Positions 5,353-40,400 of a stretch of 64,000 bases of DNA are shown here, piece by piece (the stretch's first letter is position 1; every line of letters starts with the position of its first letter). The position numbers were made by a program, and so were the translations under genes. Source of the DNA: Bacteroidia bacterium (GTDB taxonomy: Bacteria > Bacteroidota > Bacteroidia > UKL13-3); the NCBI GenBank assembly GCA_025454875.1, contig JALONP010000008.1, positions 102,616 through 166,615 on the forward strand, in the 5' to 3' direction. The notes beneath the pieces were generated by a model. The model was not told the origin of the DNA, made no database searches, and saw only the letters and a program-made list of their open reading frames with translations.

Positions 5353-5370
5353 TTATGATTGCACTCATAA
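5353..5370 (+). promoter_or_regulatory. CRP/FNR-like operator upstream of the nos operon
   Basis: The sequence TTATGATTGCACTCATAA is a perfect inverted repeat TTATGA-N6-TCATAA with the half-site spacing of CRP sites (TGTGA-N6-TCACA). It ends 49 bases before the ATG of the cytochrome c gene. It covers the place where a -33 element would be, with a -7-like AACCTTTG at 5392-5399, as expected for an activator-dependent promoter. A copy with one difference, in the same orientation and at nearly the same distance, lies before the fasciclin gene at 14086-14103. Confidence 0.65.
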
Positions 5371-5391: not shown

Positions 5392-5399
5392 AACCTTTG
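5392..5399 (+). promoter_or_regulatory. Putative -7 element of the nos operon
   Basis: AACCTTTG resembles the Bacteroidota -7 box TAnnTTTG and ends 20 bases before the cytochrome c ATG. The extended stretch TACAACCTTTG matches 9 of 11 bases of the corresponding stretch in the fasciclin promoter, which also ends 20 bases before its ATG. There is no -33 TTTG; the palindromic operator lies there instead. Confidence 0.45.
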
Positions 5400-5419: not shown

Positions 5420-5914
5420 ATGAAAAAAGTACTTATTCTTTTGAGTTCAACTGCGCTCATCTACGCATGCGGTGGTTCATCATCAAACAAATCAAATCAA
5501 GGTTCAACAAACCAAGCTACACAAACAGAAAGCACAACACCGGAATCAAAATCGGATGATTATGACGCTACCCGTGGTGAGGGAAAATTTACTTCTGAAA
5601 ATATTACTATTGGCGCAACACTTGATACCAAGTTAGCTAAAGCTGGAGAAGAAATTCAAGGGGTTAAATGCTCCTCATGCCATAGATTAACGGAAGAAAA
5701 ACTTGTTGGCCCCGGATGGAAAGGTGTAACCCAAAGACGCAAACCAGAGTGGATAATGAACTTCATTACCAACCCTGAACCAATGATTGATAAAGACCCT
5801 GCTGTGCAAGCTCAGTTGGAATTATGTTTGGTACGAATGCCCAACCAAAGTTTAACAGAAGATGAAGCACGAAACATTTATGAGTTTATGCGTAAAAATG
5901 ACGGAGTCAAATAA
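5420..5914 (+). CDS. Class I c-type cytochrome lipoprotein of the nos operon
   Basis: The 164-residue product starts with a lipoprotein signal (lipobox ending ALIYAC, Cys17), followed by a Ser/Thr/Gln-rich linker. A single-haem domain follows, with CSSCH at residues 84-88 and a probable Met axial ligand in RMPNQ near residue 140. It lies 11 bases before nosZ and is the first gene of the operon, so it is the likely periplasmic electron donor to NosZ or part of the relay from the quinol/bc1-type system. A monohaem lipoprotein beside nosZ is common in clade II nos clusters. Confidence 0.88.
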   Translation: MKKVLILLSSTALIYACGGSSSNKSNQGSTNQATQTESTTPESKSDDYDATRGEGKFTSENITIGATLDTKLAKAGEEIQGVKCSSCHRLTEEKLVGPGWKGVTQRRKPEWIMNFITNPEPMIDKDPAVQAQLELCLVRMPNQSLTEDEARNIYEFMRKNDGVK

Positions 5915-5925
5915 TATCATTCAAG

Positions 5926-7905
5926 ATGAAAAAAAATATAATAGCGGTTGCTGCAACAGGTATTGTTTTAGCAACAATGGTTTCGTGCAAACCTAAAAAT
6001 GCAGGAAATGCTGTAAGTGGAGATGCAGCGCAAAAATCATTTGTAGCTCCAGGAAAATATGATGAATATTACAATTTTGTTTCCGGTGGATTTAGCGGAC
6101 AGTTAGCTGTGTATGGCCTACCAAGTGGAAGACTTTTTAGAGTGATACCCGTTTTTTCTGTTGATCCTGAAAAAGGTTGGGGATACAGTGAAGAAACAAA
6201 ACCAATGCTAAATACTTCACATGGCTTTGTTCCTTGGGACGATTTGCATCATCCAGAACTTTCGCAAACAAATGGAGAAATTGATGGCAAGTGGGTATTT
6301 GGAAATGCAAACAACACACCAAGGTTGGCACGAATTGATTTAAAAACTTTTAAAACTGCCGAAATTATTGAGTTACCTAATAGCGGAGGAAATCATAGTT
6401 CGCCTTTTGGAACTGAAAATACCGAATACATTGTAGCGGGCACACGCTTTAGTGTACCTGAAGATGGAGCAGGAGATGTTCCAATAAATACTTACAAGAA
6501 AAATTTTAAAGGTCATATAAGTTTTGTAAGTGTAGATAAAGAAAGTGGAAGAATGAAGATTGCATTTCAATTAAAAACTCCAGGTGTAAATTTTGATTTG
6601 GCACGCTGCGGTAGAGCAAAGTCACATGGATGGTTCTTTTTTAGCTGCTACAATACAGAGCAAGCAAATACCTTGTTGGAAGTAAATGCATCCCAAAAAG
6701 ATAAAGACTTTATAATGGCTGTAAATTGGAAAAAAGCAGAGGAATATATTAAACAAGGCAAAGGCGTTAAGAAATCAGTTAAATATGCCCACAATGTTTG
6801 GAACGAGGAGACTCATACTGCCACATCAACAATAGAAAAGGAAGTATTGGTGTTAGATGTAGCTGAACTAAAAGATATTTGTTACTTTATTCCTTGCCCA
6901 AAATCACCTCATGGTTGTGATGTTGACCCAACGGGCGAATTTATAGTAGGCAGTGGTAAGTTAGCTGCAGTAATACCCGTATTTAGTTTTGATAAATTGC
7001 AAAAAGCAATTAGTGAAAAAGCATTTGACGGAGATTATCAAGGAATTCCTGTTGTAAAATATGAAGCTGCTCTCTATGGTGAAGTTAAAAAACCTGGCTT
7101 AGGCCCATTGCATACAGAATTTGATGGAAAAGGAAATGCATATACTTCATTCTTTGTTTCTTCAGAAGTTGTAAAATGGAATATTAAAGATCTTGCAGTA
7201 ATTGATCGCGTACCTACCTTTTATTCTGTTGGTCACCTTTGCATACCAGGTGGTAACACACGCAAACCTTCACCTAAATATTTAATTGCCTACAATAAAA
7301 TCACAAAAGATCGTTACTTACCTACTGGGCCTGAACTAACCCAAAGTGCACAGATATATGATATTAGTGGCGAGAAGATGCAACTCATACTTGATTTTCC
7401 TACCATTGGTGAACCTCACTATGCGCAAGCCGCTCCTGCAGATGTTATTAGAAACAATGGGCAACTCAAAATTTACAAAATAGGTGAAAACAAGCATCCA
7501 TATGTATCAAAAGGAGAAGGTGAAGCTAAAGTGATTCGAAATGGGAAAACAGTGCATGTGAATATGACATCTATTCGTTCACATTTTGCTCCTGATAATA
7601 TTGAAGGAATTAAGTTAGGTGATGAAGTATATTTCCACATCACTAACTTAGAACAAGATTGGGATGTACCACATGGATTTGGAATAAAGGGTGCAAACAA
7701 TGCAGAATTATTAATTATGCCAGGAGAAACTACTACATTAAAATGGGTTCCTGATAGAACAGGAATATTTCCAATGTACTGTACAGATTTTTGCAGCGCA
7801 TTGCATCAAGAAATGCAAGGATATGTTCGCGTATCGCCAGCAAATAGTACTGTTCCACTTACATTCAGCATAGGAACAAACATTCCTAAAGCTGAAAACA
7901 AATAA
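5926..7905 (+). CDS. nosZ: Nitrous oxide reductase, clade II Sec-dependent lipoprotein form
   Basis: Reduces N2O to N2 in the periplasm, the last step of denitrification. The 659-residue product begins with a Sec lipoprotein signal (lipobox MVSC) rather than a twin-arginine signal, typical of clade II. The beta-propeller part shows conserved histidines for the CuZ cluster (DDLHHPELS near residue 108, SPHGCDVDPTGEF, PLHTEFDGKG, VGHLC, EPHY). The C-terminal cupredoxin carries CuA ligands: His in DVPHGF near 583, then C619-TDF-C623, H627 and M630. It follows the cytochrome c gene by 11 bases and precedes the nosL fusion, nosD, nosF and nosY. All key copper ligands visible are intact, so activity is likely. 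Confidence 0.97.
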   Translation: MKKNIIAVAATGIVLATMVSCKPKNAGNAVSGDAAQKSFVAPGKYDEYYNFVSGGFSGQLAVYGLPSGRLFRVIPVFSVDPEKGWGYSEETKPMLNTSHGFVPWDDLHHPELSQTNGEIDGKWVFGNANNTPRLARIDLKTFKTAEIIELPNSGGNHSSPFGTENTEYIVAGTRFSVPEDGAGDVPINTYKKNFKGHISFVSVDKESGRMKIAFQLKTPGVNFDLARCGRAKSHGWFFFSCYNTEQANTLLEVNASQKDKDFIMAVNWKKAEEYIKQGKGVKKSVKYAHNVWNEETHTATSTIEKEVLVLDVAELKDICYFIPCPKSPHGCDVDPTGEFIVGSGKLAAVIPVFSFDKLQKAISEKAFDGDYQGIPVVKYEAALYGEVKKPGLGPLHTEFDGKGNAYTSFFVSSEVVKWNIKDLAVIDRVPTFYSVGHLCIPGGNTRKPSPKYLIAYNKITKDRYLPTGPELTQSAQIYDISGEKMQLILDFPTIGEPHYAQAAPADVIRNNGQLKIYKIGENKHPYVSKGEGEAKVIRNGKTVHVNMTSIRSHFAPDNIEGIKLGDEVYFHITNLEQDWDVPHGFGIKGANNAELLIMPGETTTLKWVPDRTGIFPMYCTDFCSALHQEMQGYVRVSPANSTVPLTFSIGTNIPKAENK

Positions 7906-7958: not shown

Positions 7959-8963
7959 ATGAAAATTTCAAAACTTTCAAAAGTACTTGCTTTTGTATGT
8001 GCATTAGTACTTTTCATTTCTTTATTTGTTCCACTATGGCGTATTGAACTTGATGCACCTCAATATCCTGAAGGACTGGCTTTGCTTATTTATCCAAATG
8101 CGATTAAAGGTGATGTTGACATTATCAATGGATTAAACCATTACATTGGAATGCAAACCTTGCATGCCGAAAAATTTATTGAATTTACGCTCTTGCCATA
8201 TATCATCGGCTTGTATGCTTTGCTCATGCTATTAATTGCCATTTTAGGTAAGAGGAAATTACTAAATGGTGTAACAATTGCTTTTGTACTATTCGGAATA
8301 GTTGCAATGGTTGATTTTTGGCGATGGGAATATAATTATGGGCATAATCTTGACCCTGATGCTGCAATTAAAGTTCCAGGAATGACGTATCAACCTCCGT
8401 TAATCGGTTTTAAACAATTGTTGAATTTTGGAGCATATTCAATTCCTGATATTGGCGGATGGCTTTTTATTGTTTGTGGAATACTACTGATAATCGCAGT
8501 AACAATTGAAAACAATTGGCTTTCAAAAATGAAAAAACAAAACGTAACTGCAATTATTTTTTGCGCCTCAATGCTTATAATATCAAGTTGCGGGCAGAAA
8601 GGACCAGTGCCAATTCAATTAAACAAAGATGAGTGCGCACATTGTAAAATGACCATTACAGATTTAAAATTTGCCACTGAAATTATTACTGATAAAAACA
8701 GGATTTACAAATTCGATGATATAGTTTGCACTTGGACCTATTTGAAAGAGAATGAAACCCAAAGCAAATATTCTGTTTGGATAAGCGACTATTTGAACCC
8801 ACAAACAATGGTGAATTCAATTGATATGCATTTCGTAAAGTCAGATGCGATTAAAAGTCCAATGGGTGGTAAAACAATTGCATTTGAGAATAAAGACTCT
8901 GCATTAAAATATGCAACAAGCTACCAATCTGAATTACTTCGCTGGGAAAACCTGAACTACTAA
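7959..8963 (+). CDS. nosL: Membrane protein fused to NosL copper chaperone
   Basis: The 334-residue product has two parts. Residues 1-190 carry four hydrophobic segments (about 10-27, 76-95, 100-118, 160-184), resembling the small membrane protein (NosB-like) found between nosZ and nosL in many clade II clusters. Residues 191-334 look like a complete NosL lipoprotein: Met191-Lys-Lys, a hydrophobic stretch, lipobox ISSC at Cys211, then the copper-binding CAHCKM motif and a conserved FDDIVC segment. NosL delivers Cu(I) to NosZ in the periplasm. No stop separates the halves. Met191 (ATG at 8529) could serve as an internal start, or the lipobox could be processed within the fusion. The frame and NosL identity are firm; the fusion's biological reality is less certain. 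Confidence 0.85.
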   Translation: MKISKLSKVLAFVCALVLFISLFVPLWRIELDAPQYPEGLALLIYPNAIKGDVDIINGLNHYIGMQTLHAEKFIEFTLLPYIIGLYALLMLLIAILGKRKLLNGVTIAFVLFGIVAMVDFWRWEYNYGHNLDPDAAIKVPGMTYQPPLIGFKQLLNFGAYSIPDIGGWLFIVCGILLIIAVTIENNWLSKMKKQNVTAIIFCASMLIISSCGQKGPVPIQLNKDECAHCKMTITDLKFATEIITDKNRIYKFDDIVCTWTYLKENETQSKYSVWISDYLNPQTMVNSIDMHFVKSDAIKSPMGGKTIAFENKDSALKYATSYQSELLRWENLNY

Positions 8964-8974
8964 TTTATACATTG

Positions 8975-10213
8975 ATGCCTTGCAGAGCTGCATATGTTTG
9001 TATAGTAATATTAACTCCATTGAGTTTATTTGCTACCATTTGGAATGTAGGAACCACTTATAAACTAAAAAAAGTTCATGCTGCTTTAGAATTAGCTCAA
9101 AGTGGAGATACTATAATAGTTCAATCAGGATTGTATACTGAAGGGACTTTAACCATCAATAAAAAACTGGTATTAATTGGAATAAATTATCCCGTTTTAG
9201 ATGGTGAAAAAAAAGCAGAAGTGGTTTCTATTAAACATGATTCTGTAGTGTTTAATGGGTTTAGAGTACAACGGTCAGGATATGCTACGCTTGACGATCC
9301 TGGTGGAATTAAAGTATATAATTCCAATAATGTTGCCATCATTAACAATGATTTATATGATAATTTTTTTGGCATTTATATTCAATATGGAAAACATTGC
9401 CGCATTCAAAATAACAAAATAAAGTCGCTGGGTAAAGATGAGCAAGCCATTGGGAATGGAATACATTGTTGGAAAAGTGATAGCCTACTCATAATAGGAA
9501 ACAAAATTCAAGGTCATCGAGATGGTATTTACTTTGAGTTTGTTACACATTCACTCATATGGCGAAATCAATCTGAAAAGAATATCAGATATGGATTACA
9601 CTTTATGTTCTCAAATAATGATACATACGTTACCAATACCTTTAATAATAATGGTGCTGGAGTGGCAGTAATGTTTAGCCATAAGGTAAATATGTTTAAT
9701 AACACTTTTAGCAATAATTGGGGAGATGCCGCATATGGTATTTTATTGAAAGAAATATCAGATTGCGTAATGCAAGGAAATAGGTTTACTAGCAATACAA
9801 TCGCAGTTTATATGGAGGGTACGAACAGAATAAAAATATATAAATGCGTATTCCAGAACAATGGTTGGGGGCTAAAAATACAGGCAAGTTGCATGGATAA
9901 CTCAATTGAATTAAACAACTTTTTGAGTAATACATTTGATGTGAGCACAAATGGAAGTTTAGTATTAAATACATTTTCGAATAATTATTGGGACAAATAC
10001 AATGGTTATGATTTAAACAAGGATAAAATTGGAGATATACCATTTCACCCGCTCAGTTTATTTGCGGTTTTGGTTGAGCAAAACAATCCGGTAATGCTTC
10101 TATACCAAAGTTTATTTACGGTATTGCTAGATAAATCTGAAAAACTCATTCCCAGTTTAACGCCTGATAATTTCATAGACGAATCGCCACGTATGCTAAA
10201 AATTGTATTATGA
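8975..10213 (+). CDS. nosD: NosD, periplasmic beta-helix protein for NosZ copper site assembly
   Basis: The product (412 residues from the ATG at 8975; a TTG lies just before it at 8972) has a signal peptide of about 22 residues. A long right-handed parallel beta-helix of CASH/NosD repeats follows, visible as recurring N-N and G-I/Y-I/Y patterns (NNDLYDNFFGIYIQYGKHC, NNKI, GNKIQGHRDGIYFEF). NosD works with the NosFY ABC transporter to mature the CuZ centre of NosZ. It overlaps nosF by four bases (ATGA), indicating translational coupling. Length and position in the cluster are typical. Confidence 0.92.
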   Translation: MPCRAAYVCIVILTPLSLFATIWNVGTTYKLKKVHAALELAQSGDTIIVQSGLYTEGTLTINKKLVLIGINYPVLDGEKKAEVVSIKHDSVVFNGFRVQRSGYATLDDPGGIKVYNSNNVAIINNDLYDNFFGIYIQYGKHCRIQNNKIKSLGKDEQAIGNGIHCWKSDSLLIIGNKIQGHRDGIYFEFVTHSLIWRNQSEKNIRYGLHFMFSNNDTYVTNTFNNNGAGVAVMFSHKVNMFNNTFSNNWGDAAYGILLKEISDCVMQGNRFTSNTIAVYMEGTNRIKIYKCVFQNNGWGLKIQASCMDNSIELNNFLSNTFDVSTNGSLVLNTFSNNYWDKYNGYDLNKDKIGDIPFHPLSLFAVLVEQNNPVMLLYQSLFTVLLDKSEKLIPSLTPDNFIDESPRMLKIVL

Positions 10214-10923
10214 TTGAAATACAACAAATCTCAAAATCATTTGGCAAACTTAAGGTACTACAAGATATTAATATTGACTTACCTAAAGGAGCTTGCATTG
10301 CCTTAATTGGACCAAACGGGTGCGGTAAAACTACACTTATCAAAATATTGTTAGGAATGGTGTTCCCAACAAATGGCCTTATTCATATTAATGGAAAATC
10401 AATTAACAAAGACGATATGTATAGAGCTCAAATTGGTTATATGCCACAAATTGGGCGGTATCCAGAGCAGATGAAAATTGAACAAATTTTTGAAATGATA
10501 ACCAAACTGCGAACATCTGGAAATAATATAGATGAAGAGCTTTTTACAGCTTACAAGTTAAATGAAATTGGCGAAAAAAAAATGAGAACCCTCTCTGGAG
10601 GAACAACTCAAAAAGTAAGTGCTTCGCTGGCTTTTTTGTTTAACCCCAATATTCTCATTTTAGATGAACCTACTGCAGGCTTAGATCCTTTAGCATCTGA
10701 GATATTAAAGGATAAAATCCTTAAAGAAAAAAACAATGGGAAACTTATTCTAATTACATCCCATTTATTAAGCGAGTTAGATGATATTGTAACACATGTA
10801 ATTTACATGCAAGAAGGTAAAATACGCTTATATAAATCAATCGAAAATTTAAAAACAGATACACAATCCCAATCATTTTCAAAAGCAATTGCAAACTTGT
10901 TAAAAGCAGATTCACATGATTAA
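10210..10923 (+). CDS. nosF: NosF, ABC transporter ATP-binding protein
   Basis: The 237-residue ATPase has Walker A GPNGCGKTT near residues 34-42, the ABC signature LSGGTTQKVS, Walker B ILILDEPTAGLDP and a switch His in TSHLL. It energises NosY, exporting or handling a sulfur-containing species needed for the CuZ site through NosD. Its start overlaps the nosD stop by four bases and its end overlaps nosY by eight, the classic nosDFY arrangement. Confidence 0.93.
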   Translation: MIEIQQISKSFGKLKVLQDINIDLPKGACIALIGPNGCGKTTLIKILLGMVFPTNGLIHINGKSINKDDMYRAQIGYMPQIGRYPEQMKIEQIFEMITKLRTSGNNIDEELFTAYKLNEIGEKKMRTLSGGTTQKVSASLAFLFNPNILILDEPTAGLDPLASEILKDKILKEKNNGKLILITSHLLSELDDIVTHVIYMQEGKIRLYKSIENLKTDTQSQSFSKAIANLLKADSHD

Positions 10924-11683
10924 AATGATTCAATTAGTCATGCTTGATGTAGTTAAGAACAGAACAGTTCTTGCCTATTTACTGCTACTCTCAACATTAA
11001 GTTGGAGTGTCTTTTTTTTAGAAGACAGCTCAACTAAAGGGACCTTAACCTTATTAAATCTTATGCTCTTGATGATTCCTTTAGTAAGTATTATTTTTTC
11101 ATCAATATATATTTACAATTCTTCAGAGTTTATTTATTTATTGGTTAGCCAACCTGTTTCACGTAAAACTATTTGGATTAGTTTATACTTGGGTTCTGTT
11201 AGTGCATTAATTGTTGCGCTATTTATTGGTCTTGGTATACCTGCGTTACTCTATTTACCGCTTTCCATTGCACTTTACCTCATATCTGTTGGAATAGCCA
11301 TAACTGCAACATTTTCCTCTTTCGGATTTTTAGTAGCATCTGCTTTCAGAGATAAGGCTAAGGGAATTGGGGTTTCAATTTTACTATGGCTATTTTTTGC
11401 AATACTATTTGATGGTATCATTTTGCTTTTGATTTTTCAGTTTTCAGCATATCCTATTGAAAAAGCCATGATTGTGGTTTCAATGTTTAGTCCTTTAGAT
11501 TTAGCCCGAATACTTGTGCTTATTCAACTTGATGTAGCTTCTTTGCTCGGCTACACGGGAGCCATTTTCCAACTTTTTTTTGGCACTAAATTAGGCACAA
11601 TAATATCTGCTATAGTTTTACTCTTATGGGCAGTTATTCCATTTTTACTTTCTCTTAAAATATTTACCAAACGCGATCTATAA
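10916..11683 (+). CDS. nosY: NosY, ABC transporter permease
   Basis: The 255-residue membrane protein has about six transmembrane segments and belongs to the ABC-2 permease group. Its segment SEFIYLLVSQPVSRKTIWISLYLG resembles the cytoplasmic coupling region after the second helix. It partners NosF and NosD in building the copper-sulfur centre of NosZ. It overlaps nosF by eight bases, and the tryptophan dioxygenase gene starts one base after its stop, so transcription almost certainly continues. Confidence 0.9.
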   Translation: MIKMIQLVMLDVVKNRTVLAYLLLLSTLSWSVFFLEDSSTKGTLTLLNLMLLMIPLVSIIFSSIYIYNSSEFIYLLVSQPVSRKTIWISLYLGSVSALIVALFIGLGIPALLYLPLSIALYLISVGIAITATFSSFGFLVASAFRDKAKGIGVSILLWLFFAILFDGIILLLIFQFSAYPIEKAMIVVSMFSPLDLARILVLIQLDVASLLGYTGAIFQLFFGTKLGTIISAIVLLLWAVIPFLLSLKIFTKRDL

Positions 11684-11684
11684 T

Positions 11685-12584
11685 ATGAATACAATTATCA
11701 ACGATATTGAAACGAAATACAAAAAATTGGGTGAAAATCCTGAAACATATTTTAAAGGTTTACTGCAAGCTAAATCTTTAAATTATTGGGATTATGTAGA
11801 AGTTGAAACCTTATTGTCATTGCAAAAGCCAAGAACAAATTTTAAAGATGAAGAGGTGTTTATCATGTACCATCAAATAACCGAGTTGTTTCTGAAACTA
11901 ATTTTACATGAGGTGAAACAAATACAAACTAAACCTGTAACAACTGAACCGTTTTTGCTTAATAAATTTACGCGAATAATTAGGTATACAGAAATGCTAA
12001 TCTCTTCTTTCGATATTATGCGAGATGGAATGGAATATAATGACTATAATACATTTAGAACTGCATTAGCACCTGCTAGTGGATTCCAAAGTGCTCAATT
12101 TAGATACATTGAAATTTATTGTACTCCACTAATTAATTTAATTAATGAGGATGAAAAAAAGAGAATACCTAACAACCCCAGTATTGAAGAATTATTTGAG
12201 CATCTCTATTGGAAAGATGCCGGACATAACCGAAAAACGGGCTCCAAAACTTTAACACTTATTGAGTTTGAAGAAAAATACCTTGAAAGTTTTATTCAAT
12301 TAGCAAACAAGGTAGAAGGCAAAACAATAGCAAACCAAATTAATGACTTAAACAACCCATCTGCTGAACTTATAGATATGTTAAAGAAATTTGACTATTT
12401 GTACAATGTTGCTTGGCCGCTAGTTCATCTTAATACAGCTAAACACTACCTTGAAAGCAAAAACGAAAGTCAACAAGCAACAGGAGGATCTGAATGGAAA
12501 AAGTATTTACATCCCCAATTCCAACAGCGCAAATTTTTTCCTGAGTTATGGTCGGAGGAAGATAAATTGAATTGGGCCAAGTAA
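11685..12584 (+). CDS. Tryptophan 2,3-dioxygenase family haem protein
   Basis: Tryptophan 2,3-dioxygenase opens the indole ring of tryptophan with O2, giving N-formylkynurenine. The 299-residue product keeps the signature segments and key residues: His63 in MYHQITELFLKL (substrate indole contact), Tyr121 and Arg125 in YNTFR followed by APASGFQSAQFR (carboxylate binding), His248 in WPLVH (proximal haem ligand), and Thr266 in ATGGSEW, where most relatives have TGG followed by Ser/Thr-Gly. Length is usual for Bacteroidota members. It starts one base after nosY and is followed ten bases later by a globin gene; no other kynurenine genes are present. It is probably a real dioxygenase, but placement in a nos operon is odd and its substrate here is unproven. 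Confidence 0.88.
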   Translation: MNTIINDIETKYKKLGENPETYFKGLLQAKSLNYWDYVEVETLLSLQKPRTNFKDEEVFIMYHQITELFLKLILHEVKQIQTKPVTTEPFLLNKFTRIIRYTEMLISSFDIMRDGMEYNDYNTFRTALAPASGFQSAQFRYIEIYCTPLINLINEDEKKRIPNNPSIEELFEHLYWKDAGHNRKTGSKTLTLIEFEEKYLESFIQLANKVEGKTIANQINDLNNPSAELIDMLKKFDYLYNVAWPLVHLNTAKHYLESKNESQQATGGSEWKKYLHPQFQQRKFFPELWSEEDKLNWAK

Positions 12585-12594
12585 CAATTGCGCC

Positions 12595-12963
12595 ATGAAA
12601 AAGAAAAAGGATTTAAAAACGAAAAAGGATATCGAACGAATGGTGAATAATTTTTACTTCAAAGTAAAAAAGGATAACCTTTTGAACGTTTACTTTAAAA
12701 ACACCAATTGGGAAAAACACCTTCCTATTATGTATTCTTTTTGGGAAAATATTGCATTCTCATCATCCGAATATTCTGGTAATCCTATGGAAAAACACCA
12801 ACACTTACATCAGATTCATCCAATCTCAACTATGCACTTTGAACGATGGATGGAACTTTATACGCAAAACATGAATGAACTATTTGAAGGCCCAAATGCA
12901 ACTTTGCTCATATTGAGAGCTGCCAACATCTCTAAAATAATGCTATCAAAACTAATCAGCTAA
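12595..12963 (+). CDS. Group III truncated haemoglobin
   Basis: The 122-residue globin has the group III pattern: FYFKVKKD near the N-terminus, SFWENI around residue 48, then Y-SGNPMEKH with His68 as the likely proximal haem ligand, followed by MHFERWMELY and a final helix with NISKIML. Group III globins bind O2 and NO, and several are linked to nitrosative stress. Its place directly after the nos genes and dioxygenase fits a role in NO or O2 handling during N2O respiration; this is inference. It overlaps the next gene by one base (TAATG). Confidence 0.88.
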   Translation: MKKKKDLKTKKDIERMVNNFYFKVKKDNLLNVYFKNTNWEKHLPIMYSFWENIAFSSSEYSGNPMEKHQHLHQIHPISTMHFERWMELYTQNMNELFEGPNATLLILRAANISKIMLSKLIS

Positions 12964-13403
12964 TGCATCAGCTACTTTTAATCATACATCTAGTTGCTGC
13001 AACAATTTGGATTGGAGGTCATCTTATATTATGCCTAGGCATTTTGCCACGTGCAATTAAAACCGACAATCCAAATATTATTCTTCAATTTGAGAAACAA
13101 TTTGAACCTATCGGTATACCCGCATTATTGCTTTTGGTTATTAGTGGCATCCTGCTATCACTACAATATGATATTACCATCTCAAAATGGTTTACATTTA
13201 CACAATCCATAGAAATGGTGATAAGCTACAAACTTATATTACTCCTTATCATTTTTATGCTAGCACTACATGCCAGGTTTATACTAATTCCTAAACTAAC
13301 AATTGAGAATATGTATAAACTTGGATGGCATATTGTTTTGGTTACTTTGTTATCGGTATCAATGCTTGTTCTTGGGAGTTCTATAAGATTTGGTGGCATT
13401 TAA
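12963..13403 (+). CDS. CopD-like small integral membrane protein
   Basis: The 146-residue protein has four predicted transmembrane helices. Histidines at or within helices (H3, H9, H20 and H101 region) are arranged as in the CopD/DUF2269-like family, whose members are linked to copper handling or bind haem b. The HLVAATIWIGGHL start is typical. It is the last gene of the nos operon, one base overlapping the globin gene and followed by a strong hairpin. A copper or haem role matches the operon but is inferred from family and position. Confidence 0.75.
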   Translation: MHQLLLIIHLVAATIWIGGHLILCLGILPRAIKTDNPNIILQFEKQFEPIGIPALLLLVISGILLSLQYDITISKWFTFTQSIEMVISYKLILLLIIFMLALHARFILIPKLTIENMYKLGWHIVLVTLLSVSMLVLGSSIRFGGI

Positions 13404-13473: not shown

Positions 13474-14037
13474 CTATTTTGGTAATAACACATCGTTTAT
13501 TACGTGAACAACTCCATTAGAAGTTTTGATTGTCCCAACTATTTCTGAGCCATTCACAAAAGTCTTATCGCCTTGTTTTGTTATTTTCGCCTTGCCTCCA
13601 AATACCATATCATATTCTGCGCCATCCATCAACAATACACCGTCTATAACTCCTACATAAGTATGATAGCCTAAAATATCGGTGAGTTTCTCTTTATTTT
13701 CTGGTTTCATCAAATCTTCAACCGTGCCCGTTGGTAATTTATCAAAAGCTGCATTGGTAGGTGCAAATACGGTGAATGGTCCAGCATTACTTAATGCATC
13801 AACCAATGCTGCCGCTTTAACTGCCGCTACTAATGTCGTATGGTCTTTACTACCAACTGCAACTTGAACAATATTAGGTGCTGATGTGGCATCAACTACT
13901 CCAGATTGGCCTGTCATCGGAGTTGCGTCAGCAGAGGATTCAGTGGTTGGTTTTGAAGCTTTTTCGGTTGACGAACCACAGCTAGTAGCTAATACCAATA
14001 ATAAAACCGGAATACAAAATAAGAGTACTTTTTTCAT
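13474..14037 (-). CDS. Fasciclin (FAS1) domain lipoprotein
   Basis: The 187-residue product has a lipoprotein signal (lipobox ATSC near residue 20), a Ser/Thr-rich linker and one FAS1 domain from about residue 55. The domain has the conserved stretches HTTLVAAVKAAALVDAL, GPFTVFAPTNAAFDKLP and the H-box region GVVHVINDVLLPK. FAS1 proteins mediate adhesion or bind ligands at the cell surface; the exact role is unknown. It converges on the nos operon, and its promoter contains nearly the same palindrome as the nos promoter, so it is probably made under the same conditions. Confidence 0.9.
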   Translation of the reverse strand: MKKVLLFCIPVLLLVLATSCGSSTEKASKPTTESSADATPMTGQSGVVDATSAPNIVQVAVGSKDHTTLVAAVKAAALVDALSNAGPFTVFAPTNAAFDKLPTGTVEDLMKPENKEKLTDILGYHTYVGVIDGVLLMDGAEYDMVFGGKAKITKQGDKTFVNGSEIVGTIKTSNGVVHVINDVLLPK

Positions 14038-14057: not shown

Positions 14058-14065
14058 CAAAGATT
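14058..14065 (-). promoter_or_regulatory. Putative -7 element of the fasciclin gene
   Basis: Reads AATCTTTG on the minus strand (extended TATAATCTTTG), ending exactly 20 bases before the ATG, as in the nos promoter. It is near the TAnnTTTG consensus and lies 24 bases after the palindromic operator, against 25 for nos. Confidence 0.45.
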
Positions 14066-14085: not shown

Positions 14086-14103
14086 TTATGCGTGCAATCA
14101 TAA
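14086..14103 (-). promoter_or_regulatory. CRP/FNR-like operator upstream of the fasciclin gene
   Basis: On the minus strand this reads TTATGATTGCACGCATAA, identical to the nos operator except for one base (G for T at position 13). It ends 48 bases before the fasciclin ATG, against 49 for the nos site, in the same orientation relative to the gene. Shared sequence, orientation and spacing argue that both are bound by one regulator. Confidence 0.65.
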
Positions 14104-14374: not shown

Positions 14375-14968
14375 TTAAAACCAAAGTTTTCGATTAATAA
14401 TTGATACTAATTGTTTTGCCTCCATTTGCTTTAGTGTTCGGATAACCGTTTCTACACGAAGACCTGTAAAGTTTGCTATTTCTTGCCTAGTGTGAGGTAT
14501 TTGAATCGGTTGCTTGGCTGAGGTTATCCTAGTTTTGGTTGACTTCAAAAATCCTAGAATTCTACCTTCGGGGTCGTTATTTATAATTTCTCGAGCAGTA
14601 ATTGCTTTATTATAAACTCGCTGTGCAAGTATTTCAATCATTTTAAATTGTAAATCTTGATTGTCTTGAAGCAATTTGAAGAATTTATCTTTTGCCAATT
14701 TAATAACAATAGTAGACTCCATAGTAACTGCAGTTGCTGGATAAGGTTGGTTGATAAAAAGAGGAGGTTCACCAAAACTTTGACCTGATTCGAAAACACC
14801 TTGAACAAATTCTTTTCCATCATTATTGACATTAACCATGCGAACTTTACCCTCTTGTATTTGGTAATAACAAACAGGTCGTTCATCTTCATTAAAAATA
14901 ATCTCATTCTTTCGATAACGCTTAGTTACCGCACCCCAAGCCAATAATAAATGAATGTCAATCTGCAT
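14375..14968 (-). CDS. Crp/Fnr family transcriptional regulator
   Basis: The 197-residue product has an N-terminal cyclic-nucleotide-binding-like beta roll (EGKVRMVNVNNDGKEF, GQSFGEPPLF), a long dimer helix and a C-terminal winged helix with HTRQEIANFTG followed by recognition helix LRVETVIRTL. I start it at the ATG at 14968, just after the upstream gene's stop at 14973; an ATG at 15016 would overlap that gene. FNR-type N-terminal cysteines are absent (one Cys), and the cAMP phosphate-binding Arg is replaced in QPYPATAV, so it is neither classic FNR nor clear CRP. The helix motif VETxxR suits sites with a TGA core, as in the nos and fasciclin operators. It is likely co-transcribed with the NADH dehydrogenase. 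Confidence 0.88.
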   Translation of the reverse strand: MQIDIHLLLAWGAVTKRYRKNEIIFNEDERPVCYYQIQEGKVRMVNVNNDGKEFVQGVFESGQSFGEPPLFINQPYPATAVTMESTIVIKLAKDKFFKLLQDNQDLQFKMIEILAQRVYNKAITAREIINNDPEGRILGFLKSTKTRITSAKQPIQIPHTRQEIANFTGLRVETVIRTLKQMEAKQLVSIINRKLWF

Positions 14969-14972
14969 AAAG

Positions 14973-16262
14973 TTATTGCTTTTGTACAAATGGTCTTGTA
15001 ATAATTCGAATGGCACGTTGGTAACTCACGTAATTCCATACCCAATTTAAAAACACAACCACCCTATTTCTAAATCCAACCAACAACATCAAATGTAAAA
15101 ACATCCACCCCAACCAAGCAATATAACCTTGCATTTTGATGCCAAAAACTTCAAGCACTGCTTTATGCCTACCTACAGTTGCCATGCTTCCCAAATTAAG
15201 GTAGGTATATGGTTTTAAGGGCTTATTTGAAACCATATTCAAAATGTTTTTCCCAAGCAAGCGCCCCTGTTGTTGCGCTACTGTGGCCACCATTGGGTGC
15301 CCATTTGGAAATGCCCCATCTGTTTCCATATAAGCAATATCTCCAATGGCAAACACATTCGATAAGCCTTCAATTTTATTATAGGCATCCACCTTGTAAC
15401 GGTTGCCACGTGTAATCACATCAGCCGAAATTCCATCAATCGTTTTTCCTTTTACACCTGCGCTCCAAATAACTGTATCTGTTTTCAAAACCGTTCCGTT
15501 ACTTAAAAAAAGTTCCCCTGTAACTGCATCATATTTTTGAACTGAGGTATTCACTTGCACATGCACCCCAAGATCTTCTAAAAACTGCTTTGCCTTGCGT
15601 GACGAAACTTCGCTCATTGCAGCCAATACAAGAGGAGCAGCTTCAACCAAATGTACTTGCATTTTTGATGCATCCAATTCCGTATAGTCTGCTGGCAATA
15701 CATTCTTTTTCATTTCAGCCAATGCGCCCGCAGTTTCCACTCCTGTAGGGCCTCCACCCACTACTACGAAATTAAGTGCCCGCTCAATAGTTTGAGAATT
15801 AGGCTCGTTTAATGCCTTTTCAAACTCTTGCAAAATATCGCTTCGCAAATCCAACGCATCCGGAATTGATTTCAGTTGCATGCTGTATTTCTCCAATTCG
15901 GCATTTCCAAAAAAATTCGTTTGTGCACCCGTAGCAATACATAAATAATCATATGAAAATGTACCAATACTGGTCATCACTTCATTGCGCTCCGTTTGTA
16001 CGCGTTGAACCTCAGCCATCCTAAAAGCAATATTGGGCATACCACTAATAATTTTACGCAACGGATATGCTATTGCATCAGGTCCTAAACCGCCCGAAGC
16101 AACTTGGTACATTAAAGGTTGAAAATTAAAGTAATTGTGTTTGTCGAAAACAGTAACCTTAATGGGCTTGTTGTTGAGTTTTTTGATTAACTCCAATCCT
16201 GCAAAACCTCCACCAATAATGATTAAATGTGGAGCCTGCATTGTTTGATAATGATGTTTCAT
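14973..16262 (-). CDS. ndh: Type II NADH dehydrogenase (NDH-2 family FAD oxidoreductase)
   Basis: Non-proton-pumping oxidation of NADH with transfer of electrons to membrane quinones. The 429-residue product has an FAD-binding GGGFAG near residues 17-22, a second Rossmann motif VVGGGPTGVETAG for NADH, and AIGDIAYME before the C-terminus. The tail has hydrophobic helices (about residues 370-415) for membrane association, typical of Bacteroidota NDH-2. Its stop is five bases before the Crp/Fnr start codon, so the two form an operon. The N2O pathway downstream of quinol could accept its electrons; that link is inferred. Confidence 0.9.
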   Translation of the reverse strand: MKHHYQTMQAPHLIIIGGGFAGLELIKKLNNKPIKVTVFDKHNYFNFQPLMYQVASGGLGPDAIAYPLRKIISGMPNIAFRMAEVQRVQTERNEVMTSIGTFSYDYLCIATGAQTNFFGNAELEKYSMQLKSIPDALDLRSDILQEFEKALNEPNSQTIERALNFVVVGGGPTGVETAGALAEMKKNVLPADYTELDASKMQVHLVEAAPLVLAAMSEVSSRKAKQFLEDLGVHVQVNTSVQKYDAVTGELFLSNGTVLKTDTVIWSAGVKGKTIDGISADVITRGNRYKVDAYNKIEGLSNVFAIGDIAYMETDGAFPNGHPMVATVAQQQGRLLGKNILNMVSNKPLKPYTYLNLGSMATVGRHKAVLEVFGIKMQGYIAWLGWMFLHLMLLVGFRNRVVVFLNWVWNYVSYQRAIRIITRPFVQKQ

Positions 16263-23249: not shown

Positions 23250-25631
23250 CTACAACTTCACACCAATTCCTACATACCAAGTTCTACCATCTGCAGGCAA
23301 TAAACCCGGGCCTGGATACCCATTCGCTCTGCGTGTAAAATAAGATGCATTGAATACATTGTTAATACCTGCATTAATATTGTATCGTTTGTAAAATGTA
23401 TAACTAGCACTCCAATCCGCAACTTCATATGATGGAATTAAACCAACAGTTGCTGCCGCATTTGATGTACGCGTATTAAGTGCATCGCTGTATACTTGAT
23501 CCACCATACTGTATTGAAAAGTTGTAGCAAAAGATTTGTAACGATAAGTGAGACCAAATCGGTGAACATAACCGGGAGCATTCTCCACCTTTTTCCCTTT
23601 TTGGCTTTTTGTCACATCAGGATTATTCCATTCTGTATACGTTGCATTCACAAACGCCATGGATGCAAATAAACTAATTTGACCTCCCTTAAATTGTTTG
23701 AACAACGCTGTAGGCGTGCATTCTATATAACTTTCAATCCCCCTACTTTGTGATGCCCCAATATTGGTACGGAAGTTTTTACCATTTACTAAATACGTTC
23801 CTACTCTATTGCCGTAATGCAAGTAAAATGCACTTACATCAAAACTTATCAAGTTGCCTACAGAGCCTCTGTATCCTAAATCTATATTGTATCCTTTTGC
23901 ATCTCTTAGATTTTCATCAATCGAATCATTGGTAGCTGGAGTAATATCTGTAAACTGAACTGGCCGGTACGCTTGGGTGTAGTTTGCATAAACATTGGTA
24001 TTGCCTGTAACAGCATACTGTGTACCAACTCCGAACAATGCAAAATTTCTCGCACTGGTTTGATTTGACGTGCGGCCATCAAAAGTTCCTGCCGAAGCAT
24101 TTTGCAAATACTCTAAACGCATGCCTGGAGTGATGCTCCAACGTGAACCAATAGCAAACATGTTTTCTGCAAACAATGCAATATTTCGTGCACCAAAATC
24201 CAAATCACGCTTTAAAACGGTCGACTCAGCACTCATGTCAAATTCAGTTCCCCTGTTTCCGTTGATGTTTTGAATACGATCTGTATTGCCTTTGTAGGCA
24301 CGAAACCCGATGGCCAAATGGCTTTTTTGTTGCCCCAATGAATAGGTAAATAAATGCCTTGCTTCCACACCAAAATTGGTGTATAAATCACGATCAATTG
24401 TTCTTTTGTTGTATTGTCCTGTAACTGCACTAATCAAATCAGGTGTGTTGATTGCACTCATATAACCAATACTGGAACGGTTACCTGTTAATGCAAACGC
24501 TTTTACCTGCAACTGATGGCGAAGGTTGAATTGATAAACGATTGTTGCTGCAGCAATATTCCATTTCAAATCAAACCAATTGCGACCGCGAACAGATTGA
24601 CGTGCACTGATTGCAAACATCGAATCAGTAAGTCCGCCAGGTTGTTGTACCAATTGATCCATGCGTGTGTATTCGAAATTGATGTTTAACTTTTTGGTAA
24701 ATTGGTACCCAACATTTACAAAACCGTTCCAAGTATCATAGCCATTGTTTTGGCGCCATCCATCACTTCTGCGGTAGTTGATATTGGCATAATATGAAAA
24801 CTTGCCTAAGGTGCCACCCACTGCATTAAATGTGCTGAACATTCCATACGCGCCAACGGTTTGCATCGACTCAACACCCACTTTTTTGCCACTTACCGAG
24901 CGCTTTTTAACATAATTAACAACTCCGCCAAACTGAGGTCCATACTGCAATGATGCTGCTCCACGGATCACTTCAATTCGATCAAGCGATTCCACCGATG
25001 GAGTGTAATATGCTTCTGGATAACCAAACGGATCGGCCGCAATATCATAGCCGTTTTGACGCGTATTAAATTCCCACATTCTATTCGGACTCAAACCGCG
25101 CGAGGCAATACCCATTTGTACTCCACTACCATCGTTTTCCCAAACATGAATTCCGGGAACCTTTGCAAAAACCTGCCTGGTATTGTTTTGGGCAAGATTG
25201 GCTGTGGCAGTTGAAAGACGTACGACTTCATTTTTTTTACCCGCGTAAATAACATTGTCTTTTACATCGGGCATGCGTTCAATACCTCTGTTAATTTGAG
25301 CGGTAACAGAAGCCTCTTGCAATTGAATGGTTTTGGCAACAATTAGTTTTGGCAATACCAATTGTTCATCTTCTTGTTGAATGGTAAATGTGGTTAGCCA
25401 AACGTTTTGGCCATTTACAACCGTTGTTAATTCATAACTGCCTTTTAGCAATCCAGCAAACACAAACTCACCGAGTTGGTCGGTGGTTGCAGTTAACCCA
25501 TTCGATAAATAAACTTCCTTGAGTAACAGCGGTTGGCCCGACTCTGCATATAAAACACCTTTTAATTGAGCGGCTGAAACCCCAACTGAAGTAAGCCATA
25601 ACGCCATCCATAATACATATTTTGAGTGCAT
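23250..25631 (-). CDS. TonB-dependent outer-membrane receptor, FecA-like
   Basis: The product (793 residues from the ATG at 25631) has a signal peptide, an N-terminal carboxypeptidase-regulatory-like beta domain (about residues 20-90), a plug with the conserved RGLSPNRMWEFN and IEVIRGAASLQYGPQFGGVVNY segments, and a 22-stranded barrel ending in the terminal strand WYVGIGVKL. The plug and barrel resemble ferric-citrate and siderophore receptors. It imports an iron complex or similar ligand with TonB energy. No SusD partner is adjacent, so polysaccharide uptake is unlikely. It is a single gene, tandem to the AlkB gene. Confidence 0.92.
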   Translation of the reverse strand: MHSKYVLWMALWLTSVGVSAAQLKGVLYAESGQPLLLKEVYLSNGLTATTDQLGEFVFAGLLKGSYELTTVVNGQNVWLTTFTIQQEDEQLVLPKLIVAKTIQLQEASVTAQINRGIERMPDVKDNVIYAGKKNEVVRLSTATANLAQNNTRQVFAKVPGIHVWENDGSGVQMGIASRGLSPNRMWEFNTRQNGYDIAADPFGYPEAYYTPSVESLDRIEVIRGAASLQYGPQFGGVVNYVKKRSVSGKKVGVESMQTVGAYGMFSTFNAVGGTLGKFSYYANINYRRSDGWRQNNGYDTWNGFVNVGYQFTKKLNINFEYTRMDQLVQQPGGLTDSMFAISARQSVRGRNWFDLKWNIAAATIVYQFNLRHQLQVKAFALTGNRSSIGYMSAINTPDLISAVTGQYNKRTIDRDLYTNFGVEARHLFTYSLGQQKSHLAIGFRAYKGNTDRIQNINGNRGTEFDMSAESTVLKRDLDFGARNIALFAENMFAIGSRWSITPGMRLEYLQNASAGTFDGRTSNQTSARNFALFGVGTQYAVTGNTNVYANYTQAYRPVQFTDITPATNDSIDENLRDAKGYNIDLGYRGSVGNLISFDVSAFYLHYGNRVGTYLVNGKNFRTNIGASQSRGIESYIECTPTALFKQFKGGQISLFASMAFVNATYTEWNNPDVTKSQKGKKVENAPGYVHRFGLTYRYKSFATTFQYSMVDQVYSDALNTRTSNAAATVGLIPSYEVADWSASYTFYKRYNINAGINNVFNASYFTRRANGYPGPGLLPADGRTWYVGIGVKL

Positions 25632-39160: not shown

Positions 39161-40400
39161 TTGGCTCACGCTTGTGTTGTATTACACATTTGTGATTGCT
39201 GGATTGTTATGCATTTATGCCTCGGTGTACCGCGAAAGCAACCCGATGATTTATGATGCAACTCAAAATTATGGCAAGCAATTAATTTGGATTGGCGCAT
39301 CATCATTCATTGGCCTTTTAATTTTACTGGTTGATGAAAAGTTCTTTTACGCATTTGCGTATCCTATTTACATTATTACCATTGTGCTTTTATTGGCAGT
39401 ACTTGCTTTTGCAACCACAGTAAAAGGATCGAGTTCATGGATAGAGATTGGTGGATTTAGAATGCAACCGGCAGAGTTTGCCAAATTTGGTACTGCACTC
39501 GCTTTAGCTCGCTACATGAGTGGATTTAACATTAAGTACAGTGACCGTAAGGTACAATTGGTTACCGCGGGAATGATTTTGTTGCCCATGCTCATTATCT
39601 TATTGCAAAATGAAACAGGAAGTGCTTTAGTATTTGCTTCGTTTGTATTGATGTTTTACCGCGAAGGGTTACCTGGTTACTTTTTATTTATTGGTTTAAT
39701 GATGGCCGTGTTGGCCGTGCTTGCACTTGTTATCCCATCACTTTATCTAATCATTGCTATTGGTGTATTTGCAGGATTATTCACATTGGTAATCCGAAGA
39801 AACAGGCAAAATTTGTTGATTGTGTTGGCGGTAACATTGTTTGCCATGGCTTATGTAAGTTCAATCGGGTATGCATTTGAAAATGTATTGCAACCTCATC
39901 AAAAAACCCGTATCAATGTGTTGTTGGGAAAAGAAGTGGATTTAAAAGGCGCTGGCTACAATGTGCAGCAATCCAAAATTGCAATTGGTTCAGGTGGTTT
40001 ATTAGGTAAAGGATTTTTAGAGGGAACTCAGAATAAGTTTCGGTTTGTTCCAGAGCAGAGCACCGACTTCATTTTTTGCACCATTGGGGAAGAATATGGG
40101 TTTGTAGGATCCGTTGTCTTTATTGGATTATACATGCTGTTGTTATGGCGCATACTGGTAATGGCCGAGCGGCAGCGGCAAAAGTTTAACCGTATTTATG
40201 GGTATTGTGTTGCTGCAATTTTGTTTTTCCATTTCGCCATCAATATTGGAATGACCATTGGCCTTGTTCCTGTTATCGGAATTCCGCTTCCGTTTTTTAG
40301 TTATGGAGGTTCTGCGTTACTTAGTTTTACCATACTGCTGTTCATTTTTATTCGCTTGGATGCCAATAGACAAAATGAACTCAGAGGCGCGTTTGATTAA
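39123..40400 (+). CDS. rodA: RodA peptidoglycan glycosyltransferase
   Basis: The 425-residue SEDS-family membrane protein has about ten transmembrane segments with the conserved signatures: WIEIGGFRMQPAEFAKFGTALALARY, LLGKGFLEGTQNKFRFVPEQSTDFIF and the C-terminal PVIGIPLPFFSYGGSALLS. It polymerises lipid II for lateral wall growth together with PBP2. Its start lies 38 bases inside the PBP2 gene. It closes the mreBCD-mrdA-rodA cluster. Confidence 0.95.
   Translation: MIQQSQPKPSNIDWLTLVLYYTFVIAGLLCIYASVYRESNPMIYDATQNYGKQLIWIGASSFIGLLILLVDEKFFYAFAYPIYIITIVLLLAVLAFATTVKGSSSWIEIGGFRMQPAEFAKFGTALALARYMSGFNIKYSDRKVQLVTAGMILLPMLIILLQNETGSALVFASFVLMFYREGLPGYFLFIGLMMAVLAVLALVIPSLYLIIAIGVFAGLFTLVIRRNRQNLLIVLAVTLFAMAYVSSIGYAFENVLQPHQKTRINVLLGKEVDLKGAGYNVQQSKIAIGSGGLLGKGFLEGTQNKFRFVPEQSTDFIFCTIGEEYGFVGSVVFIGLYMLLLWRILVMAERQRQKFNRIYGYCVAAILFFHFAINIGMTIGLVPVIGIPLPFFSYGGSALLSFTILLFIFIRLDANRQNELRGAFD

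Follow-up and report, generated by a model that had tools for sequence, protein, structure and literature searches.

Two closely similar palindromes lie in the 64,000-nucleotide stretch of Bacteroidia DNA analysed here (the window), one before a nitrous oxide reductase (nos) operon and the other before a gene for a fasciclin-domain lipoprotein, and they raise the question of which protein binds them. The initial annotation had proposed the Crp/Fnr regulator encoded near the second site, from the fit between its recognition helix and the half-site TATGA. We propose, with a probability of roughly four in five, that this regulator is a dedicated Crp/Fnr activator of nitrogen-oxide genes in Bacteroidota, which would act via the 18-bp palindrome on both the nos and the fasciclin genes. 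The genes and sites are:

5353–5370, forward strand: operator TTATGATTGCACTCATAA, upstream of nosC; an exact match to TTATGAN6TCATAA, conserved before nosC in relatives
5420–5914, forward strand: nosC, the nos cytochrome c gene, first in the nos operon; its order before nosZ is conserved
5926–7905, forward strand: nosZ, nitrous oxide reductase, with gene order of the clade II type; orthologues 69-85% identical in 28 of 64 family genomes
7959–8963, forward strand: NosL domain (Pfam NosL) fused to an N-terminal membrane part
8972–10213, forward strand: nosD (NCBIfam TIGR04247, over cut-off)
10210–10923, forward strand: nosF, ABC ATPase (ABC families; conserved order)
10916–11683, forward strand: nosY, ABC permease (conserved order in relatives; no NCBIfam match)
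11685–12584, forward strand: tryptophan 2,3-dioxygenase-like gene (Pfam Trp_dioxygenase), within the nos operon
12595–12963, forward strand: truncated haemoglobin gene (Pfam Bac_globin)
12963–13403, forward strand: CopD-like membrane protein gene (Pfam CopD)
13474–14037, reverse strand: fasciclin-domain lipoprotein gene, the putative second target (Pfam Fasciclin, E 1.6e-28); nos-linked in nearly all relatives
14086–14103, reverse strand: operator TTATGATTGCACGCATAA, upstream of the fasciclin gene; one mismatch, conserved before fasciclin genes in relatives (counts below)
14375–14968, reverse strand: Crp/Fnr regulator gene, 197 aa (PF00027 cNMP_binding and PF13545 HTH_Crp, both over cut-off)

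In some relatives NosL and the membrane part are encoded by separate adjoining genes, and the tryptophan 2,3-dioxygenase-like gene is found within the nos operon in several relatives too.

The limits of the regulator gene given in the initial annotation were correct. The longer open reading frame from a GTG at 15016 was rejected, since the relatives begin with MQID, corresponding to the ATG at 14968. An NDH-2 NADH dehydrogenase gene (14973–16262, reverse strand) ends 4 bases ahead of this start, and a copy of it, 82% identical, lies near the regulator in another genome (G054, locus L069). The regulator has the cNMP-binding beta-roll and C-terminal helix-turn-helix of the Crp/Fnr superfamily. 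Its model has a predicted CRP fold (mean pLDDT 84), for which Foldseek gave GlxR and CRP as the best matches (E 1e-15 to 1e-16), and the NCBIfam CRP equivalog scores it at 67.8 bits against a cut-off of 266. The FNR cysteines are absent, as had been noted: the only cysteine, C33, is unconserved and the N-terminal extension is missing, which leaves no FNR-type cluster. The cAMP-contact arginine is likewise lacking, as Arg82-Ser83 of CRP is replaced by Tyr76-Pro77, with Tyr76 invariant in 97 of 97 relatives; Glu72 of CRP is retained as E67. Among the relatives the sensor domain contains no conserved Cys, His or Met.

Both operators match TTATGATTGCAC[T/G]CATAA. When the whole genome was scanned for TATGATTGCACNCATA with at most one mismatch in 16 bases, only these two places were found (reversed control 0), so the pair of matching TATGA-type operators that had been noticed is real and unique at this stringency. 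The exact TTATGAN6TCATAA occurs once in the 2.98 Mb genome, at nosC (control 0), where the operator lies 67 bases upstream of the nosC start and 9 kb from the regulator gene. The distance of about 400 bases given earlier for the nearer site needs correction, since that site and the 3' end of the regulator gene are 272 bases apart, and the start of the gene is 865 bases away.

The recognition helix was located as follows:

14432–14461, reverse strand: recognition helix LRVETVIRTL, residues 170–179, from alignment with E. coli CRP and FNR

Alignment with the MG1655 proteins places V172 of the helix (context G-L-R-V-E-T-V-I-R-T-L) at R180 of CRP and V208 of FNR, E173 at E181 and E209, I176 at G184 and S212, and R177 at R185 and R213, respectively. 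The reading of this helix as having Val for Arg180, with Glu and Arg kept, therefore holds, and LRVETVIR is identical in all 16 family genomes that have the regulator. That reading omitted position 184, which also sets specificity and is Ile in the regulator, Ser in FNR and Gly in CRP. The exchange of specificity between CRP and FNR involves changing positions 180 and 184 together. Rodionov and co-workers found that R180 correlates with G3 of the half-site and E181 with A6 (PMC1274295), so that the absence of both Arg180 and that G is what one would expect. The combination of a residue other than Arg at 180 with the retained Glu and Arg is, nevertheless, also found in a paralog encoded on contig C14 of the same genome (TATETIIR; C14 below), in the type C regulators described below (LATETIIR) and in response-regulator fusions (TATETVIR). 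Since these paralogs also lack Arg180, the half-site read by FNR, which has the same Val, is TTGAT, and position 184 is Ile, the helix is compatible with the operator but not discriminating. As a test of the binder the helix argument alone was rejected, several paralogs passing it, and it is comparative genomics rather than the helix that decides the pairing of regulator and operator.

The comparison covered 64 family genomes; an order-level search returned the same 64, adding no lineages. Orthologues of the regulator at 40% identity or more (type A) were present in 16 of the 64, all with nosZ, and in 0 of the 36 nosZ-free genomes (Fisher p 6e-8, with no correction for common ancestry), and they form one clade with a support of 98. 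The order nosC-Z-L-D-F-Y-(TDO)-trHb-(copD)-fasciclin-regulator recurs among these genomes. G043 and G046 have only two exact operators each, located precisely at nosC and the fasciclin gene. Twelve nosZ-bearing genomes lack type A and mostly have type C, with FNR-like cysteines; in type C genomes the sites have a TGAT-N4-ATCA core without the TTA/TAA flanks. Since relatives without type A retain a related TATGAT-N4-ATCAT before nosC and fasciclin, the core is not exclusive to the type A regulator. The six bases flanking any TGA-N6-TCA were scored, and 5-6 of the 6 matched in 21/26 regions with type A compared with 3/23 without (p 2e-6). As to whether another nos-linked Crp/Fnr protein would be the better candidate, type A is the linked one in its clade, although half of the nosZ-bearing relatives use type C. 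One operon has thus been subject to a regulator swap, some half of the nosZ-bearing members of the family using the cysteine-bearing FNR-like type with a different operator. In two genomes the type C gene is divergent from nosC (L100:12603–13307 and L101:3841–4545).

A scan of GTDB genomes added 80 further loci from Flavobacterium, Chitinophaga, Pedobacter, Saprospiraceae and others; these were partly picked via the helix peptide, and the invariance of their helix is therefore not independent. The order regulator-(membrane ORF)-fasciclin-trHb-nosYFDLZC is conserved in Flavobacterium, Chitinophaga, Pedobacter and Saprospiraceae, and in most of the 80 loci. With 0-1 mismatch, TTATGAYTnnARTCATAA was found before 30 of 38 nosC and 47 of 53 fasciclin genes and never in shuffled regions; this is also the consensus over 64 distinct sites, with a variable centre. 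The site is retained even in F. enshiense, F. solisilvae and F. davisii, in which nosC and the regulator are unlinked. In 18 of the 80 relatives the gene of the regulator itself has the site upstream, whereas in the present genome no operator was found upstream of that gene (best 4 mismatches). Autoregulation is accordingly not supported here, but it is supported in Flavobacterium.

Downstream of the operators a promoter element is found at a set distance:

5396–5399, forward strand: TTTG of the -7 box at nosC, 26 nt past the operator
14058–14061, reverse strand: TTTG of the -7 box at the fasciclin gene, 25 nt past the operator; operator centre at -41.5

A TTTG beginning 25-26 nt past the operator is present in 30/34 promoters of nosC and 42/53 of the fasciclin gene, while shuffles average about 1. 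Since the Flavobacterium element TAnnTTTG spans -12 to -5 (PMC9723704), this spacing would centre the operator at about -41.5, the position of a class II activator, and from this geometry we infer activation rather than repression. The pairing of protein and operator and their linkage are conserved, as is shown by these comparisons together with the promoter geometry. Synteny, co-occurrence, conserved operators and promoter geometry hence give strong support to the proposal that the regulator acts on both sites, the original basis of which, the Val at position 180, is weak alone. We propose that a dimer of the regulator binds the palindrome and, from about -41.5, would recruit RNA polymerase to the nosCZLDFY promoter by class II activation, and that it may activate the fasciclin lipoprotein promoter in the same way. 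It would do so on sensing nitric oxide (NO) or a closely linked nitrogen oxide, presumably with neither an Fe-S cluster nor cAMP.

It could be argued that the palindromes arose by chance or as structural repeats, since a shorter pattern with two mismatches matches the window no more often than expected by chance (36 times, with 47 expected). However, the full pattern is genome-unique and is found at a constant distance ahead of orthologous genes although the spacers have diverged, a conservation that refutes this explanation and leaves it with a negligible probability. The loose 18-mer pattern with two mismatches was uninformative, matching all 64 genomes with equally many control hits. Two matches that fall within genes, one for a RodA/FtsW-like protein (at 39251) and the other for a TonB receptor (at 24447), were taken as chance. 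It is improbable, if less so, that another Crp/Fnr protein of this genome, above all the C14 paralog, binds both operators with the regulator a linked bystander. C14, too, has no Arg180 and retains Glu181, Ile184 and Arg185, so that the helix logic fits it equally, and the relatives without type A do retain a similar ATGAT core. On the other hand, the C14 type is near universal, nosZ-free genomes included, and C14 is unlinked to nos in this genome whereas the type A regulator is linked. Furthermore, the C14 type has no match in five g3 genomes (G020-G024) with intact operators; since these genomes gave no match to type B or C at E 1e-30, neither type is a likely binder in them. The outer TTA/TAA flanks go together with the type A regulator, and the operators before the regulator's own gene also speak against C14 as the binder.

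If the type A regulator binds as we propose, there remains the nature of its signal, for which the initial annotation had named NO, haem or another ligand. The regulon narrows the choice to a nitrogen oxide, either nitric oxide or a related one. In relatives, from which these targets come rather than from this genome, sites are also found before norC-norB, RIC/ytfE (Fe-S repair), flavohaemoglobin (hmp) and an azurin/truncated-haemoglobin pair. Since norCB, RIC/ytfE and flavohaemoglobin are classic nitric oxide genes, the regulon in relatives would be a nitric oxide regulon and NO the likeliest signal. No hcp, the core target of HcpR, was found at the operator sites examined. Because the sensor domain is without conserved His, Cys or Met, NO sensing via haem is not evident from the protein sequence; if haem is used, its ligand may be of an unusual kind or not conserved. 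It is possible, though we consider it the less likely case, that the regulator responds instead to the oxygen or redox state, to N2O itself or to some other small ligand. This would suit a sensor domain with no such conserved residues and no Fe-S motif, and the Crp/Fnr-type Nss proteins of Wolinella do respond separately to nitrate, NO and N2O (PMC6682613), but the targets in relatives are NO-consuming or repair genes (norCB, flavohaemoglobin, RIC/ytfE and truncated haemoglobin). More doubtful still is the possibility that the clade serves N2O reduction specifically, senses NO or N2O via the invariant Tyr76-Pro77 pocket, using no Fe-S cluster, cyclic nucleotide or conserved His/Cys/Met haem ligand, and couples nos expression to the fasciclin surface lipoprotein.

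Several known regulators resemble the type A regulator in part. E. coli FNR has Val at 180, Glu181, Arg185 and a non-CRP half-site, and it acts with class II -41.5 geometry. The regulator differs from it in having no Fe-S cysteines, a short N terminus, Ile rather than Ser at 184 and ATGA rather than TTGA in the half-site; the first position of TTGAT in the FNR site TTGAT-N4-ATCAA is A in 90-100% of the sites. In the tree FNR groups with the cysteine-bearing, nos-linked type C and not with type A. Among the solved relatives E. coli CRP is the closest in both sequence (26% identity) and fold, but Arg180 is Val172 in the regulator and the half-site is TATGA instead of TGTGA. The type C regulators of the same family are also nos-linked, adjoining nosC in G047 and G048, but form a separate clade with an N-terminal Cys motif, a different helix and an operator of their own. 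DNR and NnrR of Proteobacteria share with the regulator the Crp/Fnr fold, the lack of FNR cysteines and regulons of nor and nos genes (PMC1274295). The DNR structure 3dkw matches the regulator family profile (E 1e-19), and the sites at nos, norCB, RIC and flavohaemoglobin in relatives make up a regulon of the DNR/NnrR type. Their half-site is, however, TTGAT/TTGAC (PMC1274295) and not TTATGAY, and the relation shown is no closer than that among Crp/Fnr proteins in general. In Campylobacterota the Nss proteins (NssA/B/C, NssR) also provide Crp/Fnr control of clade II nos and truncated haemoglobin genes in response to nitrogen oxides (PMC6682613, PMC11539149), but their consensus, TTGA-N6-TCAA (PMC11539149), is not the TTATGA-N6-TCATAA found here, and the phylum, gene order and targets (fasciclin here) are different. 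The regulator thus represents a separate clade within Crp/Fnr, with an operator of its own, which would work like DNR, NnrR and Nss while being a member of none.

In the open-access literature searched, no regulator or operator was described for the nos genes of Bacteroidota with clade II nosZ, Flavobacterium included. Since these bacteria are a major biological N2O sink, a defined regulator, operator and promoter geometry would open the regulation of N2O consumption in Flavobacterium to direct tests. The analysis also points to unexpected partners in the nitrogen-oxide response, namely the fasciclin lipoprotein and membrane proteins of 410 and about 95 aa. The putative fasciclin target is strongly conserved; the same literature yielded nothing on fasciclin together with nosZ or on a role in nitrogen-oxide metabolism. 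In most relatives the fasciclin gene is nos-linked and operator-bearing, even with another regulator or without nos nearby. In many relatives the gene for the 410-aa multi-spanning membrane protein is the next one downstream of the regulator (e.g. L208:10594–11826); it is absent from the window, and the protein had no match in Pfam or NCBIfam. In several Flavobacterium genomes an exact operator lies 50-60 bases upstream of a gene for a conserved 95-97-aa membrane protein (L307:2089–2382, L303:1681–1968, L314:1673–1960 and L282:10682–10969). An operator-like site is also found 51 bases upstream of an Rrf2-family regulator gene adjoining nadA (L254:1248–1682, and L260), which suggests a regulatory cascade.
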